From assembly GCA_025359625.1 (NCBI GenBank), contig JANYFT010000052.1, positions 1 through 61,404 on the forward strand: a stretch of DNA of 61,404 bases, written 5' to 3'. A model generated the notes under the pieces. The model was given only the letters and a program-made list of their open reading frames with translations, did no database searches and was not told the origin of the DNA. Of the stretch, positions 14,900 to 44,048 are shown piece by piece. Made by a program: the position numbers and the translations under genes. Each line of letters starts with the position of its first letter. Position 1 is the stretch's first letter. The stretch comes from Ferruginibacter sp. GTDB lineage: Bacteria; Bacteroidota; Bacteroidia; Chitinophagales; Chitinophagaceae.

Positions 14900-16060
14900 T
14901 TAAAAAGTTTCCACATTGGAGAAAACTGGGAATGGTGTATTTGCAGCCATGTTAACGCCAATTGATTTTGCCAATTCCAAAGCCTCATCAATTACATGGT
15001 GCATATCCATGTACCTGTAAGTGGCAAGCCTGCCTAAAAAAGAGATATGCTGTTGTTGCTCTGCTGCTTCCCGGTATAATTTTAATAATGCTTTATCGGC
15101 AGGCAGTCTTTTCGGATAATAAGGCACATCGGTTGGGCCTGTTTCTTTACTGTATTCTATAAAGTAAACAGTTTTATCGTGCTGCTCCCAGGGAGCAAAA
15201 TGTTTATGTTCCGTAATTCTTGTAAACGGGATTTTTTCTTCGCAATAATTTATTTGCGATGTACCCTGGTAATCGCCATCTGCATATCCTTTTTTAAAAG
15301 TAACTGTTCTATAACCCAGCCTGCCATATTGATAATTAAAATAAGCATCTATAGGCCCTGTATAGAACACATGATCGTAGCCGCTTAAATCCATTGCTGC
15401 ATCAAACTTCTTATTTAAGGTAACTGCAATGTCCGGGTGGTCAATCATTTTTTTCATTATGACAGTATACCCATCAACAGGTATGCCCGAAAATTGATTG
15501 TTGTAGTAATTATCATCATAGCTAAACCTTACCGGTATGCGTTTAATGATTGATGCCGGCAATTGAGAAGGTTCGCAACCCCATTGTTTTTTTGAATAGC
15601 CATAAAAAAATGCCTGGTACAATTCTTTGCCGATAAAACGCAACGCCTGCTCCTCAAAATTTTTAGGATCAGTGATTGTTTTATCTGCCAGCGTATCTAT
15701 AAAGGCACGGGCTTGAGATGGAGTAAAATTTTTATTAAAAAAATGATTGATAGTATAAAGGTTAACAGGTAATGAATAAACCTGGCCATCCCATACTGCC
15801 TTTACACGATGGACATAAGGCTTAAATTCACCAAAACTATTTACATAATCCCAGATGTGTTTTTTATCGGTGTTAAAAATATGTGGGCCATATTGATGCA
15901 CCATTATGTTTGTTTCCCCATCCCTTTCAGTGTGGCTGTTACCACCAATATGGTTTCGTTCATCCCAAATATCAATCTTGCAATCTATCATGCTTGCCAA
16001 CTTATTGGCCAATACGCAGCCGGAAAAACCAGAACCAACAATGAGAAAACGTTTTGACAT
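14900..16060 (-). CDS. glf: UDP-galactopyranose mutase
   Basis: A 386-residue FAD enzyme that converts UDP-galactopyranose to UDP-galactofuranose in the cytosol. The N-terminal FAD motif is LIVGSGFSGCVLANKLA (5-21), followed by the ERNHIGGNSHTE region (about 34-45). The family stretches HQYGPHIFNT (about 56-65), FFYGYSKKQWG (about 152-162) and TGPIDAYFNYQYG are present, as is the C-terminal FLGRLATYRYMDM near 342-354. The length matches bacterial Glf. It starts at ATG and is followed after 187 bases by the GlfT-like GT2. The pair indicates galactofuranose in the surface glycan. Confidence 0.95.
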   Translation of the reverse strand: MSKRFLIVGSGFSGCVLANKLASMIDCKIDIWDERNHIGGNSHTERDGETNIMVHQYGPHIFNTDKKHIWDYVNSFGEFKPYVHRVKAVWDGQVYSLPVNLYTINHFFNKNFTPSQARAFIDTLADKTITDPKNFEEQALRFIGKELYQAFFYGYSKKQWGCEPSQLPASIIKRIPVRFSYDDNYYNNQFSGIPVDGYTVIMKKMIDHPDIAVTLNKKFDAAMDLSGYDHVFYTGPIDAYFNYQYGRLGYRTVTFKKGYADGDYQGTSQINYCEEKIPFTRITEHKHFAPWEQHDKTVYFIEYSKETGPTDVPYYPKRLPADKALLKLYREAAEQQQHISFLGRLATYRYMDMHHVIDEALELAKSIGVNMAANTPFPVFSNVETF

Positions 16061-18284: not shown

Positions 18285-19193
18285 CTATCGATACTGTTTT
18301 ATTCTTAGCCAGCTTTTCCAAAAAGGTTCATTATACAATTCTATCCGGGGTATTTCAAATGCATCGCCATTGTTCACGTCATGAATTGTATGATTTACAG
18401 CTAATCCAAAATCATAACCAGCAAGCAAGGAAGCTTCCTTCACCTGTTGGTTATAGCTGCCTACCGGATAAGAAATTACTCTTGTATTGATACCTGTATT
18501 ATTAAAAAATTCAGCTTTTGATTCTTGCAATTCCTTATCTAAATCTACTTTAGAAAGTGTGGCCAGTGGCGGATGAGTAACGGTATGCGACCCTACTTCT
18601 ACTCCTGCATTTATGATCTGCTTTACTTCCTTCCAGCTCATCATCAGATCCGAAGGAATCGTTACGTCATTAAAAGAACGTAACAGATTTTGAAGCAATA
18701 TCCTGCGTTTTTCTTCCGGTATTTTTTTTATATATTGTTTAAATTTTAAACAGAACGCAATCAGTTCCTGTTTGTTTATAAACTTATCTTTTCTACAATC
18801 ATCGGGTAAAAAACTGGTGTCGATGGTCCAGTCAATTTGTAATTTATTAGTATTAAAAAAAAGATAGTCAACCTCAAAGGTCCAGGTGGGTTTGTTTTTT
18901 GATATACAATCTGTAACAACGTAAATGGATGATGCTATTTTTAACCGGTCCATTATTGGTAAACTATATTCTATATAATCCCTGTAACCATCATCAAAAG
19001 TTATTGCTGCCAAAGGTTTTTTTACAGATGCTGGTTTAGTGTCCAATATTTCGAGTAATGGTAAAACGGTATAATTTTTTTTTACAAACTTCAGTATGTT
19101 TTCAAAACGTTTTGGATCCATAGGATCCCACATAACATCTCTTACTGGATATACCCGGTGAAATAATAATATAGATGCTTTATTTTTTTTCAT
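18285..19193 (-). CDS. polysaccharide deacetylase family protein
   Basis: A 302-residue NodB-like deacetylase. ILLFHRV (8-14) begins the fold, AITFDDGYRDY (63-73) holds the catalytic and metal Asp pair D67-D68, and GSHTVTHPPL (201-210) holds the metal His H203 and H207. RVISYPVGSYN is the later Arg/Pro segment. There is no signal peptide, so it probably acts in the cytosol or on lipid-linked material. It overlaps the upstream AsnB-like gene by 14 bases, so the two are translationally coupled. It differs from the DUF3473-type deacetylase at 8408-9208. Confidence 0.88.
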   Translation of the reverse strand: MKKNKASILLFHRVYPVRDVMWDPMDPKRFENILKFVKKNYTVLPLLEILDTKPASVKKPLAAITFDDGYRDYIEYSLPIMDRLKIASSIYVVTDCISKNKPTWTFEVDYLFFNTNKLQIDWTIDTSFLPDDCRKDKFINKQELIAFCLKFKQYIKKIPEEKRRILLQNLLRSFNDVTIPSDLMMSWKEVKQIINAGVEVGSHTVTHPPLATLSKVDLDKELQESKAEFFNNTGINTRVISYPVGSYNQQVKEASLLAGYDFGLAVNHTIHDVNNGDAFEIPRIELYNEPFWKSWLRIKQYR

Positions 19194-21063
19194 AGTGTTT
19201 TATATACCAAAGTTGAAAAACTATAAGGCCCCATATTTTTTTACCAAGATAATGATCACCTTTTTTAAATTCATTTACAATATTTTCAATGAATGCGAAA
19301 CTGAATATTCCCTGTTGCTCTATCTTACTTTTATCCAATAAATGTATGTTAATTAAGTGACTCAAATTACCTGAAAGCCATTTGGAAATTGGTGCCGGGA
19401 ATCCCCATTTTTTTCTGTAAATCAAGTGATCGGGTAAATATCGTTCCAGGTCTTTCTTCATTAAAAACTTATGCATACTGCCATTTATTTTAAATTCCGT
19501 TGGCAGGTTGATGCTGAATTCTACCAGGCGGTAATCTAAAAAAGGCAACCTCACTTCCAGGCCATTGGCCATGGAAGCAATATCCATTTTATACATCAGG
19601 TTATTGGCGAGATAATTATTGATGTCAAACAAAGAAATTTTCTCCTTGTTGTCAATCGGCATTGCTTCAATATCTTCCCAATCTTTCAATATGGTTTGAT
19701 GGTTGTATTTGCAGTTGAACAACTGGCTGATCTCTTTTTCTGAAAACATTTGCTGCTCCTGCGAAACGAGGTGCAGCATTAATTTCTTTTCGTTTTCAGC
19801 TTCCAGTAAAGCGGCGCCTTTATTATATTTCAATCCCATTTTTTTCATTACAGATGCGGCTATGTAGCGCATGGGAGTGTTGCTGTATTTATAGATATTT
19901 TTTAACTGGTTATAACGGCTGTAGTAAGTATAGCCAAGAAACAATTCATCTCCGCCATCTCCGCTTAAAGCTACTGTTACCAATTGCCTTGCTTTTTCGC
20001 ATACTATTAAAGTGGGAATAGTTGAAGGGCCAACAAAGGGCTCATCATAGGCATCCACCACCGCATCTAATTGCGAGAGGCAATAGGCTTCATTCACATC
20101 AAATTGGTGATGGGAAGTTTTTAAAATTTGCGCTACCCGTGTTGCGTATTGGGTTTCATCATATTCTTTTACATCAAACCCTATAGTAAAAGTTTCAACA
20201 GGTATATCGGCATTTTGCTGAAATTTGGCGGCAATCAAAGAGGAGTCGGTGCCGCCGCTTAAAAACGAACCCACTTTTACATCACTCAACATTCTTAGTT
20301 TTACAGAACTGTTTAAAAGGCTGTCAAAACCTTCGGTTGCATCTGCTAATGATATGGTTTTTTTTTGAACCTCGTACTTATCCAATAAATTATACCAACG
20401 GGAAATTTTCAATCCTTCAGCAGGCGTGTACTCCATGTAATGGCCGTTCGGCAATTTATTGATCTCTTTAAAAACAGATTGTGTTTTCGGTATATAATCT
20501 AAAAAAAAATAATCCTTAATGGCTTCTATATTCAGTGTTCTTTGAATTGGTAAATTTTCAAAGGCTTTTATTTCGGAGGCAAAAATAAATGCATGGTCAT
20601 CGTAAAAATAAGTTACCGGCTTTACCCCAAACCTGTCCCTTACCACGGTTAATTTTTGTTGTGCTATATCCCAAAAACTAATGGCAAACATGCCATTGAA
20701 CCAATTGAAACATTCCGTACCATATTTGGAAAAGCACTCCAGGATCACCTCACTGTCACTATGTGTTTTAAAAACGGTACCGGGTAATTTTTCTTTTTGC
20801 AATTCCTGAAAATTGTACACTTCGCCATTAAAGACCATTACAAACCTGTCGTCGTGGCTCATCATAGGTTGATTGGCAGTAATACTCAGGTCTAAAATAC
20901 TAAGCCTACGGTGTGCAAGGCCAACTATGTAATCATTATCGGTATCATTAAAGTAAAAACCTTCTGCATCAGGCCCCCTATGAGCCAGTTTATCGGACAT
21001 GGATTTTAAATGTTGCTGATTAAGCCTTTTATTTAAAGAAACATACCCCGCAATACCACACAT
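19180..21063 (-). CDS. asparagine synthase-like glutamine amidotransferase (AsnB family)
   Basis: A 627-residue protein. MCGIAGYVS with Cys2, HRGPDAEG, HRRLSILDLS, FNGEVYNF and HSDSEVIL form the glutaminase domain. SFLSGGTDSSL (about 260-270) is the synthetase P-loop, followed by LSGDGGDELFLGYTYY and a C-terminal RKKWGFPAPI. It is nearly the usual AsnB length. It is paralogous to the genes at 10381 and 36770, and the three are distinct in sequence rather than recent copies. A role in amidating a sugar acid is suggested by coupling to the deacetylase and by the locus. Free asparagine synthesis remains possible. Confidence 0.87.
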   Translation of the reverse strand: MCGIAGYVSLNKRLNQQHLKSMSDKLAHRGPDAEGFYFNDTDNDYIVGLAHRRLSILDLSITANQPMMSHDDRFVMVFNGEVYNFQELQKEKLPGTVFKTHSDSEVILECFSKYGTECFNWFNGMFAISFWDIAQQKLTVVRDRFGVKPVTYFYDDHAFIFASEIKAFENLPIQRTLNIEAIKDYFFLDYIPKTQSVFKEINKLPNGHYMEYTPAEGLKISRWYNLLDKYEVQKKTISLADATEGFDSLLNSSVKLRMLSDVKVGSFLSGGTDSSLIAAKFQQNADIPVETFTIGFDVKEYDETQYATRVAQILKTSHHQFDVNEAYCLSQLDAVVDAYDEPFVGPSTIPTLIVCEKARQLVTVALSGDGGDELFLGYTYYSRYNQLKNIYKYSNTPMRYIAASVMKKMGLKYNKGAALLEAENEKKLMLHLVSQEQQMFSEKEISQLFNCKYNHQTILKDWEDIEAMPIDNKEKISLFDINNYLANNLMYKMDIASMANGLEVRLPFLDYRLVEFSINLPTEFKINGSMHKFLMKKDLERYLPDHLIYRKKWGFPAPISKWLSGNLSHLINIHLLDKSKIEQQGIFSFAFIENIVNEFKKGDHYLGKKIWGLIVFQLWYIKHYEKK

Positions 21064-26514: not shown

Positions 26515-27375
26515 TTATTGTGCAATATTCTTCAGGTATTCGCCATACCCGCTTTTGCGCAAGGCTTCACCCAAAACCATCAACTGGTCTTTATTTATAA
26601 ATCCCATCCGCCAGGCTATTTCTTCCGGACAACCAATTTTTAAACCTTGGCGTTTTTCTATTACCCTTACATATTCACTTGCATCATTCAGCGATTCAAA
26701 AGTGCCGGTATCAAGCCAGGCAAAACCCCTGTCTAAAACACCAACTTTCAATTTTTTATTTTTCAGGTATATCCTGTTCACGTCTGTAATTTCATATTCG
26801 CCCCTTGGACTTGCAGGAATATTTTTGGCAATATTCACCACTTCATTATCATAAAAATACAAACCCGGTACCGCATAATTACTTTTTGGTTTATCAGGTT
26901 TTTCTTCAATACTGATTGCATTTAAGGAAGTATCAAATTCTACCACGCCATATCTTTCGGGATCACTTACCGGGTAAGCGAATATCACAGCCCCTTCGGG
27001 ATCAGCAGAGTCCTGTAGCAATTTACTAAAGCCACTTCCATAAAATATATTATCTCCCAAAACCAATGCTACACTATCACTGCCAATAAATTTTTCGCCA
27101 ATTACAAAGGCCTGCGCCAGTCCATTGGGTATTTCCTGTTTGGCATAAGATATTGAGCAACCCCATTGGCCACCATCGCCCAACAGCCGCATAAACTGGG
27201 CCTGGTCATCCGGTGTGGTGATGATCAATATTTCTTTTATTCCCGCCAGCATTAAAGTACTCAACGGATAATAGATCATTGGTTTATCGTAAATAGGCAT
27301 TAACTGCTTACTGATACCCATTGTTATGGGGTACAACCTGGTGCCCGAGCCTCCTGCCAGAATAATTCCTTTCAT
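26515..27375 (-). CDS. rfbA: glucose-1-phosphate thymidylyltransferase
   Basis: A 286-residue nucleotidyltransferase that makes dTDP-glucose from dTTP and glucose-1-phosphate. [18 protein letters not shown] (8-25) is the nucleotide-binding motif. [19 protein letters not shown] follows, with [11 protein letters not shown] (about 107-117), VVEFD and [16 protein letters not shown] is the conserved substrate segment. The length is that of RfbA/RmlA. It feeds RfbB, encoded separately at 28448-29500. No RfbC or RfbD gene is visible, so dTDP-rhamnose is not the indicated product. Confidence 0.96.
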
Positions 27376-28447: not shown

Positions 28448-29500
28448 TTATTTAGTGCCATACATTTCCTGGTAATAATTTTGATAATTTCCACTGGTAA
28501 CATGATTTAGCCATTCTGTATTGTTAAGGTACCAGTCAATTGTTTTGGAAATACCTTCTTCAAATTGTAAAGAGGGCAACCAGTTCAATTCATTTTTAAG
28601 CTTGGTTGCATCGATGGCATAACGCAAATCATGACCAGCCCTGTCTTTTACATAGGTAATTAACTTTTCAGAAGTTCCTTTTTGCCTGCCTAATTTTTCA
28701 TCCATTTGTTTACACAATTCTTTTACCAAATCAATATTGGTCCATTCGTTATGCCCGCCTATATTGTAGGTTTCACCGATTTTGCCTGTGTGAAAAATCA
28801 CATCAATGGCCCGTACATGGTCTTCAACATACAGCCAATCCCTTATATTTTCGCCTTTGCCATAAATAGGTAAAGGTTTATTGTTAATGATATTATGTAT
28901 GCAAAGCGGTATCAATTTTTCAGGAAAATGATACGGGCCGTAATTATTACTGCAATTGGAGATTTTTACAGGCATATGGTAAGTGTGATAAAATGCTCTA
29001 ACCAAATGATCGGAAGAGGCTTTCGAGGCAGAGTAAGGGCTGCGAGGATCATAGGCTGTATCTTCCGTAAAAAAACCTTCTGCACCCAATGAGCCATACA
29101 CTTCATCAGTAGAAATATGGTAGAAGATTTTGTTGTCAAAATTATCTTTCCAAAACTCTTTAGCCGTTTGTAACAGGCAACCTGTGCCTACCACGTTGGT
29201 AGTAACAAAGGCCAACGGATCAGTAATTGATCTGTCCACATGGCTTTCGGCAGCACAGTGCAACACGGCTGTAAAGGAATGTTTTTCAAACAAAGTTCTT
29301 AAAAATGGCAGATCGGTAATATCTCCTTTTACAAACTGATAGTTTGGCTGGCCTTCAATATCTTTTAAGTTTTCAAGGTTACCAGCATAGGTCAGTTTAT
29401 CAAGGTTTACGATATTGTATTGCGGATATTTGGTTACAAATAACCTTGTTAAATGAGAGCCGATAAAGCCGGCACCGCCGGTAATTAAAATTGTATGCAT
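28448..29500 (-). CDS. rfbB: dTDP-glucose 4,6-dehydratase
   Basis: A 350-residue short-chain dehydrogenase that makes dTDP-4-keto-6-deoxyglucose. The NAD motif GGAGFIGSHL (7-16) follows the start. HISTDEVYGSLG (about 128-139) and YSASKASSDHL (YxxxK, about 158-168) form the active site, and NCSNNYGPYHFPEKLIPL is the family segment. The open frame extends 33 codons upstream; the ATG giving MHTILITGG is the family N-terminus and was chosen. It is a single-gene minus-strand unit between two plus-strand genes. Confidence 0.96.
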   Translation of the reverse strand: MHTILITGGAGFIGSHLTRLFVTKYPQYNIVNLDKLTYAGNLENLKDIEGQPNYQFVKGDITDLPFLRTLFEKHSFTAVLHCAAESHVDRSITDPLAFVTTNVVGTGCLLQTAKEFWKDNFDNKIFYHISTDEVYGSLGAEGFFTEDTAYDPRSPYSASKASSDHLVRAFYHTYHMPVKISNCSNNYGPYHFPEKLIPLCIHNIINNKPLPIYGKGENIRDWLYVEDHVRAIDVIFHTGKIGETYNIGGHNEWTNIDLVKELCKQMDEKLGRQKGTSEKLITYVKDRAGHDLRYAIDATKLKNELNWLPSLQFEEGISKTIDWYLNNTEWLNHVTSGNYQNYYQEMYGTK

Positions 29501-29651
29501 TAGCTTATAAATTAAAAGTTGGTAAAAGTATAAATAAATATTTAAGTAAACGCCGGTTACCCGTATTACAAAATGGTTAAGCCAATCATTTAATGTCAAT
29601 ATCTTTACTTACCTGATTAATTTAATAATTATAATAGTTGTATAAGGGCAA

Positions 29652-36769: not shown

Positions 36770-38641
36770 TTAATTCATCCATTTTTTCCACCACAACATA
36801 AACATAAATATCAGCCATACCTGCCAATCATCTTTAACTTTTCCATCAAGGAAGTCGTCAATTAGCCTGAGTACGTATTTTTTATGCAACACATTTTGCC
36901 GGGAGAGGCTTTCTTCATTAACCGTTTCCAGTAGTAGTGGTTTTAAATTGCCTTTTAACCAATCTCCAAAGGGTATACCAAAGCCCATTTTTGGTCTGTT
37001 CATTATTTCGACGGGCAAATATTTATGTGTTAATTTTTTTAGCAAGTATTTTTTATTACCCTTGTTATATTTCAGTTCATCAGGTAATTGTGCCGCCCAT
37101 TCAATAATACGGTGATCTAAAAAAGGCTCTCTTCCTTCAAGCCCTACACTCATAGTAGCCCTGTCTACTTTGGCTAATATATCATCGGGCAGATAGGTTT
37201 TATAATCGGCAGCTAAAAGGGTATTAATAAATCCTAACCCTGTTATTGAACTGACTTCATTTAAAGAAATATTGTGTAATGAATACGTTTGTAACAACTG
37301 TTGCAGATCATTTGCAAGAAAATGTTCACTTAATAAATCACTTGTTGAAAGAAGATTATTTTGTGTTAATAAAGTAGCAATCTTTTGGCCTCTCATGCTG
37401 ATACCAGGTATAGAAAGCAATAATTTCCCACTACCCTTTCTTATAAATAAAGGGATTTTTTTTTGTACTTTACTGATACGTGACAACTGATTGTACCGGC
37501 TATACCCTGCAAATGTTTCATCGCCTCCATCTGCAGATAAAGCTACCGTTACCTGTGCTTTTGCAAAGCGGCTTACAAGCATAGTTGGTATTGCAGAACT
37601 GTCACCAAAGGGCTCATCGTAAAAAAAAGGCAGGGAAGGTATTATTTCCTGGGCCTCTTTTGTGGTACAATAATACTCATTATGGCTGGTGCCTAAATAG
37701 GCGGCAACGCTTTTTGCATGATTGGCTTCGTTAAATGCTTCATCTTTAAATCCGATGGTAAATGTTTTTATTTTATTGGAACTGTTTTTTTGCAAAATGG
37801 CTGCCAGTAAAGAACTATCATATCCCCCGCTTAAAAAAACACCCACAGGCACATCGCTCACCATACGGTACTGAAAGGCAGACGTACAAAGCTTTTCTAA
37901 CTCATCTAAAGCTTCCGGTTCATCAATAGCATTTGTTGGTTTGTTATAATAATCCAGCACATTCCAATATTGGGTTAGTTGTAATGACTGGTCTTTTAAA
38001 TTAACTGTGGCAAAGTTCCCTGGCAAAAGTTTATGCGCATTTTTAAAAATACTATAGGGTGCTTTAATGTAGCCGTATTTAAAATAAAGTGACACCGCCA
38101 CATCATCTATTTCCTTTTTAAAATGGGCAAACTGGTGAAATGCTTTTAACTCTGATGCAAATAAAAGGCAACCATCTGCAAAATAATAGTAGAGGGGTTT
38201 TACACCAGGGCGGTCTCTTATTAAAAACACTTTTTGCAGGTTGGCATCATAAATTACAATGGAGAACATACCAATAAAACGGCTAAGGCAATCAGTACCA
38301 AATTGCTGGTATGCTTTTAATATAACCTCTGTATCTGAATTTGATAAAAAGTGATGTCCTTTTTCTTCCAGTGCTATGCGTATCTCTTTAAAATTGTATA
38401 TTTCTCCATTTAAAATAACCGCAACAGACTTGTCATCATTGTACATAGGCTGGTGGCCCAGCGGAGATAAATCTAAAATTGATAACCTGCGTTGACCTAA
38501 GCCAACAAAGGCCGCTGCTGTTTCAAAAAAAGCGGTACCACTATCATCAGGGCCACGATGCTGCAGGCTATTGCAAGCCATCGTTAATTGTTCATGGGTA
38601 ATTTTTTTATTAAAATCAATAAATCCGGTTATTCCGCACAT
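36770..38641 (-). CDS. asparagine synthase-like glutamine amidotransferase (AsnB family)
   Basis: A 623-residue protein. MCGITGFIDF with Cys2, LQHRGPDDSG, RRLSILDLSPLG, LNGEIYNF and SNSDTEVIL form the glutaminase domain. GVFLSGGYDSSL is the P-loop, followed by LSADGGDETFAGYSRY, DKVDRATMS and RPKMGFGIPF. It is the third AsnB-type gene here and close to the Pseudomonas WbpS style. In O-antigen loci such enzymes are thought to form sugar amides; a metabolic AsnB cannot be excluded. It is followed by a GT4 gene (81-base gap) and has a long divergent upstream region. Confidence 0.87.
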   Translation of the reverse strand: MCGITGFIDFNKKITHEQLTMACNSLQHRGPDDSGTAFFETAAAFVGLGQRRLSILDLSPLGHQPMYNDDKSVAVILNGEIYNFKEIRIALEEKGHHFLSNSDTEVILKAYQQFGTDCLSRFIGMFSIVIYDANLQKVFLIRDRPGVKPLYYYFADGCLLFASELKAFHQFAHFKKEIDDVAVSLYFKYGYIKAPYSIFKNAHKLLPGNFATVNLKDQSLQLTQYWNVLDYYNKPTNAIDEPEALDELEKLCTSAFQYRMVSDVPVGVFLSGGYDSSLLAAILQKNSSNKIKTFTIGFKDEAFNEANHAKSVAAYLGTSHNEYYCTTKEAQEIIPSLPFFYDEPFGDSSAIPTMLVSRFAKAQVTVALSADGGDETFAGYSRYNQLSRISKVQKKIPLFIRKGSGKLLLSIPGISMRGQKIATLLTQNNLLSTSDLLSEHFLANDLQQLLQTYSLHNISLNEVSSITGLGFINTLLAADYKTYLPDDILAKVDRATMSVGLEGREPFLDHRIIEWAAQLPDELKYNKGNKKYLLKKLTHKYLPVEIMNRPKMGFGIPFGDWLKGNLKPLLLETVNEESLSRQNVLHKKYVLRLIDDFLDGKVKDDWQVWLIFMFMLWWKKWMN

Positions 38642-39092: not shown

Positions 39093-40163
39093 ATGATAAA
39101 TGTAACGCAACCTTTTCTTCCCGCTTTTGAAACTTATGAAAAATATCTAAAACAAATATGGCAAAGAAAATGGCTGACCAATAATGGCCCGTTGGTACAA
39201 GAGCTGGAAGAAAAATTAAAAAACTATTTAGGAGTTAAACATCTATTGTATGTTAACAATGGAACAATCGCTTTACAAATTGCGATAAAGACACTTCCGG
39301 AAAATTGCGAAATTATTACCACTCCTTTTTCTTATGTTGCCACTTCAAATTCTATTTTATGGCAAGGCTGCAAACCTATTTTTGCTGATATAAAAAATAC
39401 TGATTTCAATATCGACCCTGAAAAAATAACAGCACTCATTAACGAAAATACCAGTGCAATTTTAGCAACCCATGTTTACGGCAATCCCTGCGATGTGTAT
39501 GCGATTGAAAAGATTGCGAGGGAACATAGTTTAAGAGTTATCTATGATGGGGCGCATGCATTTGGTGCAGAATTAAATGGAAAACAGGTTTTGTCATTTG
39601 GAGATATTGCTACATGTAGTTTTCATGCTACTAAACTTTTTCATACTATTGAAGGAGGCGCAATTATTACCAACGATGATGAATTAGCAAAAAAAATGAC
39701 TTTATTCAGGCAATTTGGCCATGTTGGGGATGATTATTTTTCTATTGGAATAAATGGAAAGGGATCTGAATTTCATGCGGCAATGGGTTTGTGTTTATTG
39801 CCAATGATGAAAGAATTTATTGAAAAAAGAAAAGGTATCTCACAACTTTATGACCAACTGCTAAAAGGCCTGCCTGTTCAAAAGCCAATAGCAGTTAATG
39901 GCACGGTATATAATTATAGCTATCACCCTGTTATTATTGATAGTGAAGAAAGGTTGCTCCGCATTCAGGCTTTACTTCGGAAGAATAATATAAATACACG
40001 ACGATATTTTTATCCATCTCTAAATAATCTTCCGCATTACAAGGGGGAAATTTGCCCAACCGCAGAATCGGTTAGTGCCAGGGCTTTAGCATTGCCAATG
40101 TATTATGACCTGGAACAAGCAGACATAAAAATTATATGCGATCTTATTAAAACCTGTTTTTAA
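39093..40163 (+). CDS. DegT/DnrJ/EryC1/StrS-family PLP aminotransferase
   Basis: A 356-residue sugar aminotransferase. The PLP lysine is K181 in SFHATKLFHTIEGGAI, a family hallmark. YVNNGTIALQIA (53-64), TTPFSYVATSNSILW (76-90), THVYGNPCD and YDGAHAFGAE give the cofactor site. It would aminate a keto-sugar nucleotide using glutamate. RfbA and RfbB are present, RfbC/RfbD and a 3,4-ketoisomerase are absent, and an acetyltransferase lies nearby, so dTDP-4-keto-6-deoxyglucose to the 4-amino sugar is the most likely reaction (inference). Its stop overlaps the WbqC start (TAATG). Confidence 0.92.
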   Translation: MINVTQPFLPAFETYEKYLKQIWQRKWLTNNGPLVQELEEKLKNYLGVKHLLYVNNGTIALQIAIKTLPENCEIITTPFSYVATSNSILWQGCKPIFADIKNTDFNIDPEKITALINENTSAILATHVYGNPCDVYAIEKIAREHSLRVIYDGAHAFGAELNGKQVLSFGDIATCSFHATKLFHTIEGGAIITNDDELAKKMTLFRQFGHVGDDYFSIGINGKGSEFHAAMGLCLLPMMKEFIEKRKGISQLYDQLLKGLPVQKPIAVNGTVYNYSYHPVIIDSEERLLRIQALLRKNNINTRRYFYPSLNNLPHYKGEICPTAESVSARALALPMYYDLEQADIKIICDLIKTCF

Positions 40164-40864
40164 TGAAGCTGGCAATTATGCAACCATATATTTTTCCCTA
40201 TATTGGTTATTTTCAATTGATAAATGCAGTTGATGCATTTGTTGTATATGATAATATTCAGTTTTCAAAAAAAGGCTGGATAAACAGAAATAGAATTCTA
40301 TCGAATGGTAAGGATGAGTATTTTACTTTTCCGTTAAAGAAGGGTTCCGATTATTTAAATGTTGATGAAAGAAAACTGGCAGAAACATTCCCTGCTGAAA
40401 AAATTAAATTAGTCCGTAAGTTAGAGATGTATAAAAAGGCCCCACATTTTGAATCTGTATTCTACTTACTACAAACAGTAATAAATGCCGGGGAAGAGAA
40501 CTTATTTAATTTCATTTATCAGTCTTTATTATCAGTTTGTGAATATTTAAATATTAAAACCAGGTTTGTCGTTTCATCCTCAATACCGATTAATCATGGG
40601 CTTAAATCTCAGGATAAGGTAATTGCTATTTGTAAGGCATTGGGTGCAACTGAATACATTAATCCGTTTGGTGGAGTAGCACTCTATTCAAATGAAATAT
40701 TTAAGCAAAATAATATTCAATTGAAATTTATTCAATCAACTTCAATTGAATACCGGCAATTCAAAAATGAATTTGTACCATGGCTTTCAATTATTGATGT
40801 TATGATGTTTAATTCAAAGGAGCGTATAATGGAATATTTGCAAACGGGCTATACCATAATATAA
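40163..40864 (+). CDS. wbqC: WbqC-family protein
   Basis: A 233-residue protein with the WbqC signature MQPYIFPYIGYFQL (5-18), VVYDNIQFSKKGWINRN (about 28-44), and a C-terminal VPWLSIIDVMMFN. WbqC proteins occur in O-antigen and sugar-nucleotide gene clusters. Their biochemical role is not established to my knowledge; an enzymatic step on an amino sugar is often assumed. It is translationally coupled to the aminotransferase (TAATG) and followed after 10 bases by two tandem propeller proteins. The family assignment is secure, the function open. Confidence 0.9.
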   Translation: MKLAIMQPYIFPYIGYFQLINAVDAFVVYDNIQFSKKGWINRNRILSNGKDEYFTFPLKKGSDYLNVDERKLAETFPAEKIKLVRKLEMYKKAPHFESVFYLLQTVINAGEENLFNFIYQSLLSVCEYLNIKTRFVVSSSIPINHGLKSQDKVIAICKALGATEYINPFGGVALYSNEIFKQNNIQLKFIQSTSIEYRQFKNEFVPWLSIIDVMMFNSKERIMEYLQTGYTII

Positions 40865-40874
40865 AGAGAGAAAG

Positions 40875-41837
40875 ATGTTTAAATGGCAAAAACAGGGCAG
40901 GGTTTTTAATCCTGTTGAAATAAAGGACAGGTCTTGGCTTAATGAATTTGCACAAGCCCCATCAGTGTTGATTTTTGATGAATTTATAAGGGTTTATTTT
41001 TCATGTCGGCCACCTGCGGATGAAAAAGGCCAGTACGTTAGTTATTCTGCATTTGTAGATTTAAACAGGAAAAATTTATTTGAAATAATAAGGGTTAGCA
41101 AAACACCTATTTTGAAATTAGGTGAATTGGGAACTTTTGATGAATTTGGAACCTACCCTGTTTCAGTAATAAAACACGAAAATGAAATAAGAGCTTATTA
41201 TGGTGGGTGGACAAGATGCGAATCTGTTCCTTTTAATGTTGCTATTGGTTTGGGCATCAGTAAAAATAATGGGGAAACTTTTGAAAAGCCGGGCAATGGG
41301 CCATTACTATCATACAGCCTTGATGAACCATTTATTTTAAGCGGCCCCAAAATCAGGAAATTTAATAATAATTGGTACCTGTTTTATATTGCCGGCAAAA
41401 AATGGATATTAGACAATGGTAAACCGGAGCCGGTTTATACAATAAGAATGGCTACATCTGCAGACGGAATAAACTGGATAAAAAATAATGCAGATCTTAT
41501 TGAAACCAAAGTGGAGGAAAATGAAGCCCAGGCCAGTCCTGATGTTTTTTTCTACCAGGGAAAATACCATATGTTTTTCTGCTATAGATACAGTGCCGAT
41601 TACAGAAACAAAAATAAAGGATATAGAATCGGGTATGCTTCATCAGATGATCTTTTCCATTGGACAAGAGATGATTCAAAAGCAGGAATTGAAATATCAG
41701 AAGAAGGATGGGATTCTGAAATGATAAGCTATCCGCATATTTTTGAACTGGATGGCGCTATGTATATGTTTTACCTCGGAAACCAGGTTGGTAGATTTGG
41801 ATTTGGATTAGCAAAATTGGAAAGCTATCAACCATAA
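40875..41837 (+). CDS. five-bladed beta-propeller, glycoside hydrolase-like protein (copy 1)
   Basis: A 320-residue protein built of repeated blade-like segments, resembling GH43/GH130-type propellers (for example RVYFSCRP, YYGGWTR, WYLFYIAGKKW, YHMFFCYRYS, MYMFYLGNQVGRFGFG). It shares with the next gene the blocks FDEFGTYPVSVI, SSDDLFHWTRDD and GWDSEMISYPHIFE. There is no signal peptide, so it is probably cytosolic. No catalytic pair can be assigned with confidence. It could act on, or bind, a sugar nucleotide or glycan intermediate. It is 10 bases after wbqC and 11 bases before copy 2. Confidence 0.8.
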   Translation: MFKWQKQGRVFNPVEIKDRSWLNEFAQAPSVLIFDEFIRVYFSCRPPADEKGQYVSYSAFVDLNRKNLFEIIRVSKTPILKLGELGTFDEFGTYPVSVIKHENEIRAYYGGWTRCESVPFNVAIGLGISKNNGETFEKPGNGPLLSYSLDEPFILSGPKIRKFNNNWYLFYIAGKKWILDNGKPEPVYTIRMATSADGINWIKNNADLIETKVEENEAQASPDVFFYQGKYHMFFCYRYSADYRNKNKGYRIGYASSDDLFHWTRDDSKAGIEISEEGWDSEMISYPHIFELDGAMYMFYLGNQVGRFGFGLAKLESYQP

Positions 41838-41848
41838 AAAAATGAAAG

Positions 41849-42820
41849 ATGAAATGGTTAAAAAGAGGATTAATATTTGATCCCACAAAGCACAAACTGG
41901 CAAACAATTGTTTGGAGTTTGCCCAAGCGCCCCAAACTTTGGTATTTGACAATTTTGTAAGGATTTATTTTTCAACAAGACAAAAAGATACCAGTACCGG
42001 AAAATACCTGAGTCATATTTCTTTTGTTGATTTTGATAAAAATTTCAAAGAGGCATTAAATATTTCTACAAACACCGTGATAGAGTTAGGTGGTTTGGGA
42101 TGTTTTGATGAGCATGGGATTTTCCCCATAAATATTGTAAGGCACAACAACAAAATCTTAGCGTATACATGTGGGTGGAGCAGGCGTATTTCTGTATCTG
42201 TTGAAACCTCCACAGGGCTGGCATTTAGTGAAGACAATGGCCTTACATTTAAAAAAGCCGGGGCAGGGCCTGTATTAACATCATCGGTGCATGAACCTGT
42301 ATTGGTTGGCGATTCATTTGTAAAAGTATATGATAACCGCTTTCACATGTGGTATATTTATGGAGAAAGATGGATTAAGCCTCAAGGTAATGAACCTGCT
42401 GCCAGGGTCTATAAAATTGCTCATGCTCTGTCGGTTGATGGAATCAATTGGCAAAAGGAAGAAGGTAAGCAAATAATTGCAGACAGTTTAAATGAAGATG
42501 AATGCCAGGCGCTTCCCACCGTACTAAAAATTGATAATCGTTACCACATGTATTTTTGTTTTAGAGAAGCAACAGATTTTAGAAAAAATGCAAATCGTGG
42601 CTATCGTTTGGGATACGCATGGTCGGATGATTTGGTAAGTTGGACAAGGGATGATGAAGTTGCTGGGATTGGTTTTTCAGAAAACGGCTGGGATTCAGAA
42701 ATGATGTGTTATCCACATATATTTGAATGCGATGGCAATGTATATTTATTGTATAACGGTAATGAGTTTGGAAGATATGGCTTCGGAATTGCCCGATTAG
42801 AAAAAGTTGATATCAGATAA
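41849..42820 (+). CDS. five-bladed beta-propeller, glycoside hydrolase-like protein (copy 2)
   Basis: A 323-residue tandem paralogue of the preceding gene. The same blocks recur: KRGLIFDP at the start, FDNFVRIYFSTR, GCFDEHGIFPINIV, YHMYFCFREATDFR, WSDDLVSWTRDD, and GWDSEMMCYPHIFE. It is similar over its full length but well diverged, so the duplication is old and both copies were kept. There is no signal peptide. It is followed after 6 bases by a GNAT gene. The function is unknown; context ties it to the amino-deoxysugar cassette. Confidence 0.8.
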   Translation: MKWLKRGLIFDPTKHKLANNCLEFAQAPQTLVFDNFVRIYFSTRQKDTSTGKYLSHISFVDFDKNFKEALNISTNTVIELGGLGCFDEHGIFPINIVRHNNKILAYTCGWSRRISVSVETSTGLAFSEDNGLTFKKAGAGPVLTSSVHEPVLVGDSFVKVYDNRFHMWYIYGERWIKPQGNEPAARVYKIAHALSVDGINWQKEEGKQIIADSLNEDECQALPTVLKIDNRYHMYFCFREATDFRKNANRGYRLGYAWSDDLVSWTRDDEVAGIGFSENGWDSEMMCYPHIFECDGNVYLLYNGNEFGRYGFGIARLEKVDIR

Positions 42821-42826
42821 TTAAAA

Positions 42827-43276
42827 ATGGATTTATTAGTTATTGATTACAAAATAAAAACTGCTGATGCAGCAAGCGTGCTGGTTCACTTAAACAAGTG
42901 TAAGGATAATTTTATGCCAGCATTAGATAAAATAGTAGACATCCGTGAATACTCAAAAAAGATAGTGGAAAACTCCATTACCTTTGAGGCATGGGTAAAT
43001 AATAATTTGGCAGGCTTGATAGCCGCCTATTTTAATGATAAAAAAAATCAGTCGGGATTTATAACCAACATAAGTATTGTGAATGAATATACAGGAAAGG
43101 GGCTGGCATTAGAACTTTTAAAAAACTGTATAGCGTATGGAAAACAAAAAAAATTTAAGGAAATTCATTTGGAGGTTTTTCATGAAAATAAACACGCAAT
43201 AAGATTATATCAAAAAAATGATTTTTATCAAACTGCCGTTAAAGACGATTTTGTTTTTATGAAGAAAATTTTGTGA
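42827..43276 (+). CDS. GNAT-family N-acetyltransferase
   Basis: A 149-residue acetyltransferase. SIVNEYTGKGLALELLKNCI (about 84-103) is the acetyl-CoA binding motif A. EIHLEVFHENKHAIRLYQKN (about 112-131) is motif B, and FYQT follows. In this setting the likely substrate is the 4-amino group made by the DegT aminotransferase, as WecD or VioB-type enzymes do in other pathways, although VioB itself is a different fold. It closes a tight five-gene run 39093-43276. Confidence 0.86.
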   Translation: MDLLVIDYKIKTADAASVLVHLNKCKDNFMPALDKIVDIREYSKKIVENSITFEAWVNNNLAGLIAAYFNDKKNQSGFITNISIVNEYTGKGLALELLKNCIAYGKQKKFKEIHLEVFHENKHAIRLYQKNDFYQTAVKDDFVFMKKIL

Positions 43277-43304: not shown

Positions 43305-44048
43305 ATGAGTTCGGGCAGAGATTACAATAAAGAACTAAAAGATACGGCTGATCATAAATATGCTTACAACTTTGATTTTGATGTAATGCACAGGTTTATG
43401 ATACAGGCTTTTGAACCATTTTTTAAACCCGGGAATTGTTTGGAATTGGGAAGTTTTAAAGGAGATTTTACTAGGCGTCTTGCGGCTCATTTTAACGATA
43501 TAACCTGTGTTGAAGCTTCAAATGATGCTATTGCGGTAGCGAGAAGCGAATTTGGAAATAATATAAAATTTACAAATAGCCTTTTTGAAGAGGCTACTCT
43601 GCCTGAAAAATATGACAACATTATATTGACACATGTGTTGGAACATTTGGATAATCCGGTAACAGTGATGAAAAGGATTAATGATGAATGGCTGTCTGAT
43701 GAAGGACGGTTTTTTCTTGTTTGTCCCAATGCTAATGCCCCTTCCCGACAGATTGCTGTAAAAATGGGACTAATTACGCATAACAGTGCCATTACAATTG
43801 CTGAAGCAGAACACGGGCACCGCATTACTTATACCTTAGATACTTTAGAAAGAGATGCAAGGGCAGCAGGGCTAAAAGTTGTTTACCGTTCAGGAATATT
43901 TTTTAAGGCACTGGCGAATTTTCAGTGGGACAGGTTATTGAATACTGATATTATTTCTGAAGAATATTTACAAGGATGTTTTCAGTTGGGGCAAATATAT
44001 CCTGATTTATGTTCCAGTATTTTTTTAATGTGCGAAAAGGGAAATTAA
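43305..44048 (+). CDS. class I SAM-dependent methyltransferase
   Basis: A 247-residue protein. CLELGSFKGDFTRRLA (about 44-59) is the SAM motif, ITCVEASNDAIAVA (about 65-78) gives motif II, and IILTHVLEHLDNP (about 104-116) is motif IV. FFLVCPNANAPSRQIAVKMG is typical of methyltransferases acting on glycans or lipids. The target is unknown. It lies 28 bases after the GNAT gene and 28 bases before a glycosyltransferase-like gene, in the same plus-strand block. Confidence 0.85.
   Translation: MSSGRDYNKELKDTADHKYAYNFDFDVMHRFMIQAFEPFFKPGNCLELGSFKGDFTRRLAAHFNDITCVEASNDAIAVARSEFGNNIKFTNSLFEEATLPEKYDNIILTHVLEHLDNPVTVMKRINDEWLSDEGRFFLVCPNANAPSRQIAVKMGLITHNSAITIAEAEHGHRITYTLDTLERDARAAGLKVVYRSGIFFKALANFQWDRLLNTDIISEEYLQGCFQLGQIYPDLCSSIFLMCEKGN

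Follow-up and report, generated by a model that had tools for sequence, protein, structure and literature searches.

What would a bacterium make with an aminotransferase, a WbqC family protein, two beta-propellers and an acyltransferase encoded almost end to end? We asked this of a 61,404-nucleotide stretch of Ferruginibacter sp. DNA (assembly GCA_025359625.1, contig JANYFT010000052.1, forward strand; hereafter the window), where these genes begin at position 39,093. We find that a methyltransferase gene directly downstream belongs to the same cassette, which thus has six genes, not five, and that the set keeps its order in relatives labeled as many phyla. On balance we favor, with fair though not strong confidence, the reading that the six genes are a mobile module for the cytosolic synthesis of a single activated and decorated amino sugar, where the sugar and every step toward it are read from sequence comparison and predicted structures.

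Results

A conserved six-gene cassette

All six genes lie on the forward strand. The first (39,093–40,163) was identified from its open reading frame (ORF), Pfam, curated models and solved structures as a DegT/DnrJ/EryC1/StrS sugar aminotransferase, and it matches DegT_DnrJ_EryC1 (PF01041) at 7.9e-95 (318.6 bits, cut-off 19.8, profile positions 8–359 of 360). Its ORF overlaps by one base that of the WbqC family protein (40,163–40,864; ORF, Pfam and model), a putative ATP-dependent amide ligase that matches WbqC (PF08889) at 9.7e-70 (235.2 bits, cut-off 21.3, profile positions 1–216 of 218); both matches amount to whole-domain membership. After 10 bases comes propeller A (PropA; 40,875–41,837), by its ORF and model a GH43/GH130/GH32-like beta-propeller, and after another 11 its paralogue propeller B (PropB; 41,849–42,820), which is 47% identical to PropA and falls in a separate clade of our tree. 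A GNAT acyltransferase (42,827–43,276; ORF and Pfam, 2.8e-15) starts 6 bases further on, followed after 28 bases by an S-adenosylmethionine-dependent methyltransferase (43,305–44,048; ORF, Pfam and conservation). The preliminary description of this DNA was right about the five ORFs, their tight packing, the one-base overlap and the gaps of 6–11 bases. Its five members also stand, but it missed the sixth, the methyltransferase, which we count in the set because its conservation equals that of the propellers (mean pairwise identity 0.72, with 0.70 for PropA, 0.65 for PropB, 0.56 for WbqC, 0.53 for the aminotransferase and 0.42 for GNAT).

A scan of genome contigs with PropA returned 121 relatives, and all counts out of 80 refer to the best 80 of these 121, every one of which was analyzed; their identity to the window PropA is 63–79%. 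Using a simple ORF caller on the plus strand within 6 kb, we called PropA in 78 loci (where its presence is by selection), PropB in 79, WbqC in 77, the methyltransferase in 72, the aminotransferase in 63 and GNAT in 59; some loci without a separate GNAT carry it fused to the methyltransferase or PropB, or have another acyl enzyme. These counts are lowered by contig ends and missed ORFs, and with another choice of ORF PropA also appears in L098 and L102, as does WbqC in L050. PropA and PropB stand side by side in 76 of the 80 loci, all six genes are contiguous in the order seen here in 34, and the five from WbqC to the methyltransferase are contiguous in 48, with median intergenic gaps of −4 to 3 bases. 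A conserved cassette in an amino-sugar setting, recognizable by recurring wbqC–propeller pairs, had been proposed from the window, and it is what we observe; gene order is clearly conserved.

The relatives carry the labels Bacteroidota, alpha-, beta- and gammaproteobacteria, Nitrospira, Planctomycetota, Omnitrophota, Patescibacteria, Armatimonadetes, Acidobacteria and Paenibacillus. Taxon names may be wrong for the many metagenome bins, but records not labeled as such still cover several of these groups, e.g., Mucilaginibacter, Variovorax, Methylomonas, Rhizobium, Buttiauxella, Kiloniella and Paenibacillus. In an order-level sample, 6 of 396 genomes, counting the source genome, have a PropA relative of at least 72% identity next to a second copy, and the other 13 listed genomes of the genus have none. 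Such a patchy distribution would suit a transferred module. Matches were found in 32 of 72,556 plasmid records, 19 of them Rhizobium, and in no phage record. On the Rhizobium leguminosarum plasmid pRlvE, an IS3 transposase splits the WbqC gene (L112:7009-8939); Rhizobium sp. CIAT894 has an annotated copy of full length. A collection of viral contigs yielded a single locus, L256, which holds WbqC, PropA, another GNAT and the methyltransferase (L256:5280-8203).

Could these genes be chance neighbors in an ordinary polysaccharide neighborhood, with no joint function? The window is indeed a polysaccharide locus with several glycosyltransferases, as that explanation would have it. However, the order is kept across relatives from many phyla, the pairwise distances of the genes are correlated (r 0.84 for PropA–PropB and 0.20–0.81 for the other 14 gene pairs, lowest with the methyltransferase), and PropB–GNAT and GNAT–methyltransferase fusions occur. 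We reject the explanation on the conserved order and correlated distances, and see almost no chance that it is right.

The aminotransferase and its likely substrate

The best curated model listed for the aminotransferase is DesI (TIGR04427, dTDP-4-dehydro-6-deoxyglucose aminotransferase, where dTDP is deoxythymidine diphosphate), which it matches with 262.3 bits, below the equivalog cut-off of 650, and the nearest solved structure is 2po3 (8.9e-58). Outside the cassette and on the reverse strand, the window carries rmlA (26,515–27,375) and rmlB (dTDP-glucose 4,6-dehydratase; 28,448–29,599), each above the cut-off of its curated model and predicted to supply a precursor. Because the window holds both genes, and no other copy in the assembly, which is 94% complete, scores above cut-off, dTDP-4-keto-6-deoxyglucose is a plausible substrate of the aminotransferase.

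WbqC as a possible amide ligase

The HxGH-like N-terminal motif of WbqC had led us to guess at a HUP-like ligase ahead of the WbqC fold search. In Foldseek, the AlphaFold model of WbqC (pLDDT 95.1) has BshC as its top match (E 0.016, probability 0.75). In bacillithiol synthesis BshC links an amino sugar with an amino acid, but at this E value the best fold match comes with no detectable sequence similarity and a length of 540 residues against 233. Weaker matches, mixed with unrelated folds, include MccB, ThiF, E1 enzymes and class I aminoacyl-tRNA synthetases, a group in which adenylation of the substrate is common. Pfam reportedly suggests a glycine transferase role for a WbqC relative.

Of 296 genomes sampled from the phylum, 156 have a match to PF08889. 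Around the 29 best-scoring WbqC loci of this sample outside the cassette (about 1.5 kb either side), an aminotransferase is found near 12, compared with 0 of 30 PanC and 0 of 30 BshC control loci, and a propeller near 1. The weak fold matches make WbqC a possible amide ligase; the earlier idea that it makes an acyl or amino acid derivative has gained no more than this hint. The family was said to have no established reaction, in agreement with the portions of the open literature available to us, in which WbqC appears in gene lists, is called uncharacterized or possibly serves O-antigen production. In the available part of one such account, Bacteroides thetaiotaomicron BT2884-85 is a WbqC gene together with a DegT gene (PMC10434189).

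A divergent WbqC relative of about 205 amino acids lies just downstream of a Peptidase_S26 signal peptidase gene in L235 and L236 (both Bacteroidota), with dapB before it in L236; this is perhaps a separate housekeeping class.

The two propellers

PropA and PropB are each monophyletic in a tree of 79 and 79 sequences plus 26 single propellers (support 0.72 for A, 1.0 for B and 0.98 for A and B together). In Pfam, PropB scores 19.6 for GH130 (cut-off 26) and PropA 17.4 for GH43 (cut-off 32.2), both below cut-off, and PropA exceeds the GH32N cut-off (25.2 vs. 22.1) over 80 residues only, a partial domain. The PropA model (pLDDT 95.1) is all-beta and matches BT_0996 and GH32, GH43 and GH130 enzymes, the best at E 4.6e-12 (TM score by query length 0.53–0.76 among the 50 matches listed), which supports the GH43/GH130-like shape first noted, and its strand pattern and fold relatives suggest five blades. 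No signal peptide is seen by eye, consistent with the cytosolic appearance reported earlier.

The remote fold relatives of the propellers are glycosidases and phosphorylases, in which we take the residue before the blade proline, at the start of the innermost strand, to be the catalytic acid site. In PropA these residues are A28, Y94, G157, S221 and Y286, none of them acidic, in keeping with the early impression of no clear catalytic pair; PropB has a fixed Asp 155 in blade 3, where the alignment register is ambiguous. Within five residues either side of the innermost-strand starts, a span of our own choosing, polar residues (D, E, H, K, R, Q, N) are fixed in both propellers at 7 of 55 positions, compared with 7 of 265 elsewhere (Fisher P 0.004); in PropA numbering they are Q27, D89, E90, E217, Q219, D280 and H288. 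Because fixed polar residues are denser at this end of the fold, both propellers may keep a working pocket.

One alternative makes the propellers glycosyltransferases or phosphorylases of the GH130/GT108 type. They would then link the amino sugar to a second sugar, and the product would be a disaccharide unit. The propeller profile has local sequence similarity to the beta-1,2-mannobiose phosphorylase 7fip (7.4e-07) besides the likeness of fold, and the fixed Asp of PropB falls on the GH130 Asp-Pro motif in one alignment register. However, other alignments put other blades at that place, PropA has Gly there, and a separate GT2 gene directly follows the methyltransferase in 30 of the 66 loci with a called next ORF. 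PropA and PropB share fold and local sequence similarity with the GH130 phosphorylase and with GH43, GH32 and GH117 propellers, but differ in their GH43 and GH130 scores under cut-off, the partial GH32N match and the lack of acids before the PropA blade prolines. We regard this explanation as improbable, and the roles first suggested for the propellers, as phosphorylases, epimerases or sugar sensors, stay conjectural.

A more serious competitor keeps the same sugar but has GNAT acylate the aminotransferase product directly, with WbqC as a transferase of another kind or a scaffold and the propellers as non-catalytic sugar-binding partners that hold GNAT and the methyltransferase. The missing acids of PropA, the lack of a confident fold match for WbqC and a PropB–GNAT fusion in L106 all suit this arrangement. 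It fits less well with the seven polar pocket-end residues fixed in both paralogues, or with an aminotransferase that accompanies WbqC where there is no propeller nearby (12 of 29 loci, against 1 of 29 with a propeller). We think it unlikely, though well ahead of the disaccharide explanation.

Exchange in the acyl slot

The module that we favor would include an acylation, and the gene at that place varies. Between PropB and the methyltransferase, L094 and L110 have a Formyl_trans_N protein, as does L053 after one further ORF, and L064 has another GNAT in this region, as does L084 with three further ORFs ahead of the methyltransferase. L109 has an ATP-grasp protein between WbqC and PropA and yielded no GNAT; L079 also has an ATP-grasp protein, but its contig stops within PropB. 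PropB and GNAT form a single ORF in L106. GNAT is joined to the methyltransferase in L048 and L058, as Pfam shows, and ORF length alone hints at the same in L054 and L078.

Distant single propellers, 32–39% identical in the order sample, show a related picture: WbqC is present in 11 of 20 such loci that were fetched, and 5 of 8 plasmid regions with distant relatives have WbqC, each plus a methyltransferase and an acetyltransferase, with none annotated in the other 3. Among 10 neighbors scanned from six single-propeller loci, 4 are hexapeptide acyltransferases (L119, L122, L133 and L134). This suggests a recurring core of WbqC, propeller, methyltransferase and aminotransferase with an exchangeable acyl step. 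In L043:6118-7209 and L101:6156-7238, a Methyltransf_24 protein takes the usual place of the aminotransferase immediately before WbqC, and EamA family transporter genes lie near the single-propeller WbqC sets of three alphaproteobacterial plasmids (L246, L250 and L251).

Flagellin and other acceptor settings

A flagellin ORF or fragment is present in 8 of the 80 loci (each up to 17 kb), compared with about 0.6 expected from the flagellin density in 30 of these genomes (63 matches), which were picked partly for long contigs and GT41 neighbors. The Buttiauxella sp. B2 locus (L096) runs from flagellin through a GT41 protein that also carries methyltransferase and TPR domains to the six genes, and on to a sigma-70 factor (regions 2–4) that by place and length would be FliA and a protein matching Phage_int_SAM_1 that by place would be FliZ. 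Relatives of the 1150-amino-acid L096 protein (E below 1e-30) occur in 12 of the 80 loci, including all 8 with flagellin; the similarity may lie in its TPR or methyltransferase regions, and only for L096 and L101 did Pfam confirm the GT41 domain. We looked for a link to a known O-antigen structure by comparing the WbqC-to-PropB stretch of L096 with E. coli records, of which 0 of 20,395 matched in this DNA comparison. Other settings have ABC exporter genes (clusters in 11 and 10 loci), GtrA (9 loci) or GT2. The amino-sugar and glycan setting seen in the window by the preliminary description stands; it had missed the flagellin setting of other hosts. That a single module stands beside several acceptor systems suggests that it makes an activated sugar.

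Elsewhere in the window's polysaccharide locus are a UDP-galactopyranose mutase (14,900–16,060) that scores just over its curated cut-off, so that the surface polysaccharide may contain galactofuranose, and two asparagine-synthase-like amidotransferases (19,180–21,063 and 36,770–38,641).

Discussion

From these genes we infer a pathway in which RmlA and RmlB would provide dTDP-4-keto-6-deoxyglucose and the aminotransferase would place an amine on C4. WbqC would then use ATP to activate a small acid, probably an amino acid, and couple it to this amine, GNAT (a formyltransferase in other hosts) would acylate an amine of the WbqC product, and the methyltransferase would add a methyl group. The two propellers would act on the sugar as a pair, each with its own pocket, and a glycosyltransferase outside the core would move the finished sugar to its acceptor, a surface polysaccharide here and flagellin in some other hosts. 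The product most likely resembles modified viosamine, as an amino-dideoxy sugar nucleotide with an N-acyl and a methyl group, and is probably destined for cell-surface glycans or flagella.

Several observations weigh against this pathway. The aminotransferase scores far under every curated equivalog cut-off, so neither the sugar nor the carbon position is fixed, and GNAT may acylate the sugar directly, which would leave WbqC without a task. No solved structure matches the WbqC model at E 0.001 or better, its profile found chance TPR hits only among PDB sequences, and hhalign of WbqC with BshC and PanC was negative, although the PanC–BshC positive control was negative too, so that this comparison argues neither way. 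The divergent WbqC class has lost the Gly of the HxGH-like motif, and an aminotransferase is near 0 of 20 of its loci (8 kb each). For the propellers, the pocket check that had been proposed on a predicted structure gave the excess of polar residues described above, but when every residue fixed in both copies is counted, polar or not, the excess shrinks (17 of 55 vs. 52 of 265, P 0.07). The 80 loci were retrieved through PropA, so its own presence in them carries no weight. L256 has PropA without PropB, and no methyltransferase was called in L037, L061 and L092, nor WbqC in L062, though these contigs run on and the absences look real.

The nearest known system is the modified viosamine (mVio) pathway of Pseudomonas syringae flagellin, with vioA, vioB, vioR, vioM and vioT, in which a small gene island makes a dTDP-4-acylamido-4,6-dideoxy, 2-O-methyl sugar that is put on flagellin (PMC3927599); for the cassette, a like product is predicted from its genes. 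The available part of that account names no WbqC or propeller, and the cassette described here, unlike mVio, accompanies several acceptor systems in many phyla. The flagellin glycosylation islands between fliC and fliA of Enterobacteriaceae occupy the same insertion site as the Buttiauxella locus and share GT41 with a methyltransferase domain, DegT aminotransferases and acetyl- and formyltransferases, but in the portion at hand no WbqC or propellers are named, and the survey table has no island in its two Buttiauxella strains (PMC4875605). In Dickeya zeae WH1, a seven-gene fliA–fliC insert (methyltransferase, glycosylase, two hypotheticals, WbqC, DegT and a methyltransferase regulatory domain protein) is, judged by gene names alone, much the same set, listed without a proposed function in the part available (PMC9650423). 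In the open-access literature we found no account of a propeller or GH43 protein in a WbqC setting, and two flagellin-island papers, PMC5109656 among them, do not contain the term GH43; subscription papers lay outside this scope.

WbqC proteins are common in the phylum, and yet the family is called uncharacterized in what is available of the open literature. Because the cassette has recurring partners, a variable acyl slot and, in some hosts, flagellin as an abundant acceptor, its reaction should be testable by simple mass spectrometry. Tentatively, and against the odds as we now judge them, WbqC may prove to be a new stand-alone adenylate-forming ligase that amino-acylates sugar nucleotides, the propellers would be the first GH43/GH130-like enzyme pair in nucleotide-sugar biosynthesis, and a conserved sugar would be carried on flagella and surface glycans across phyla.

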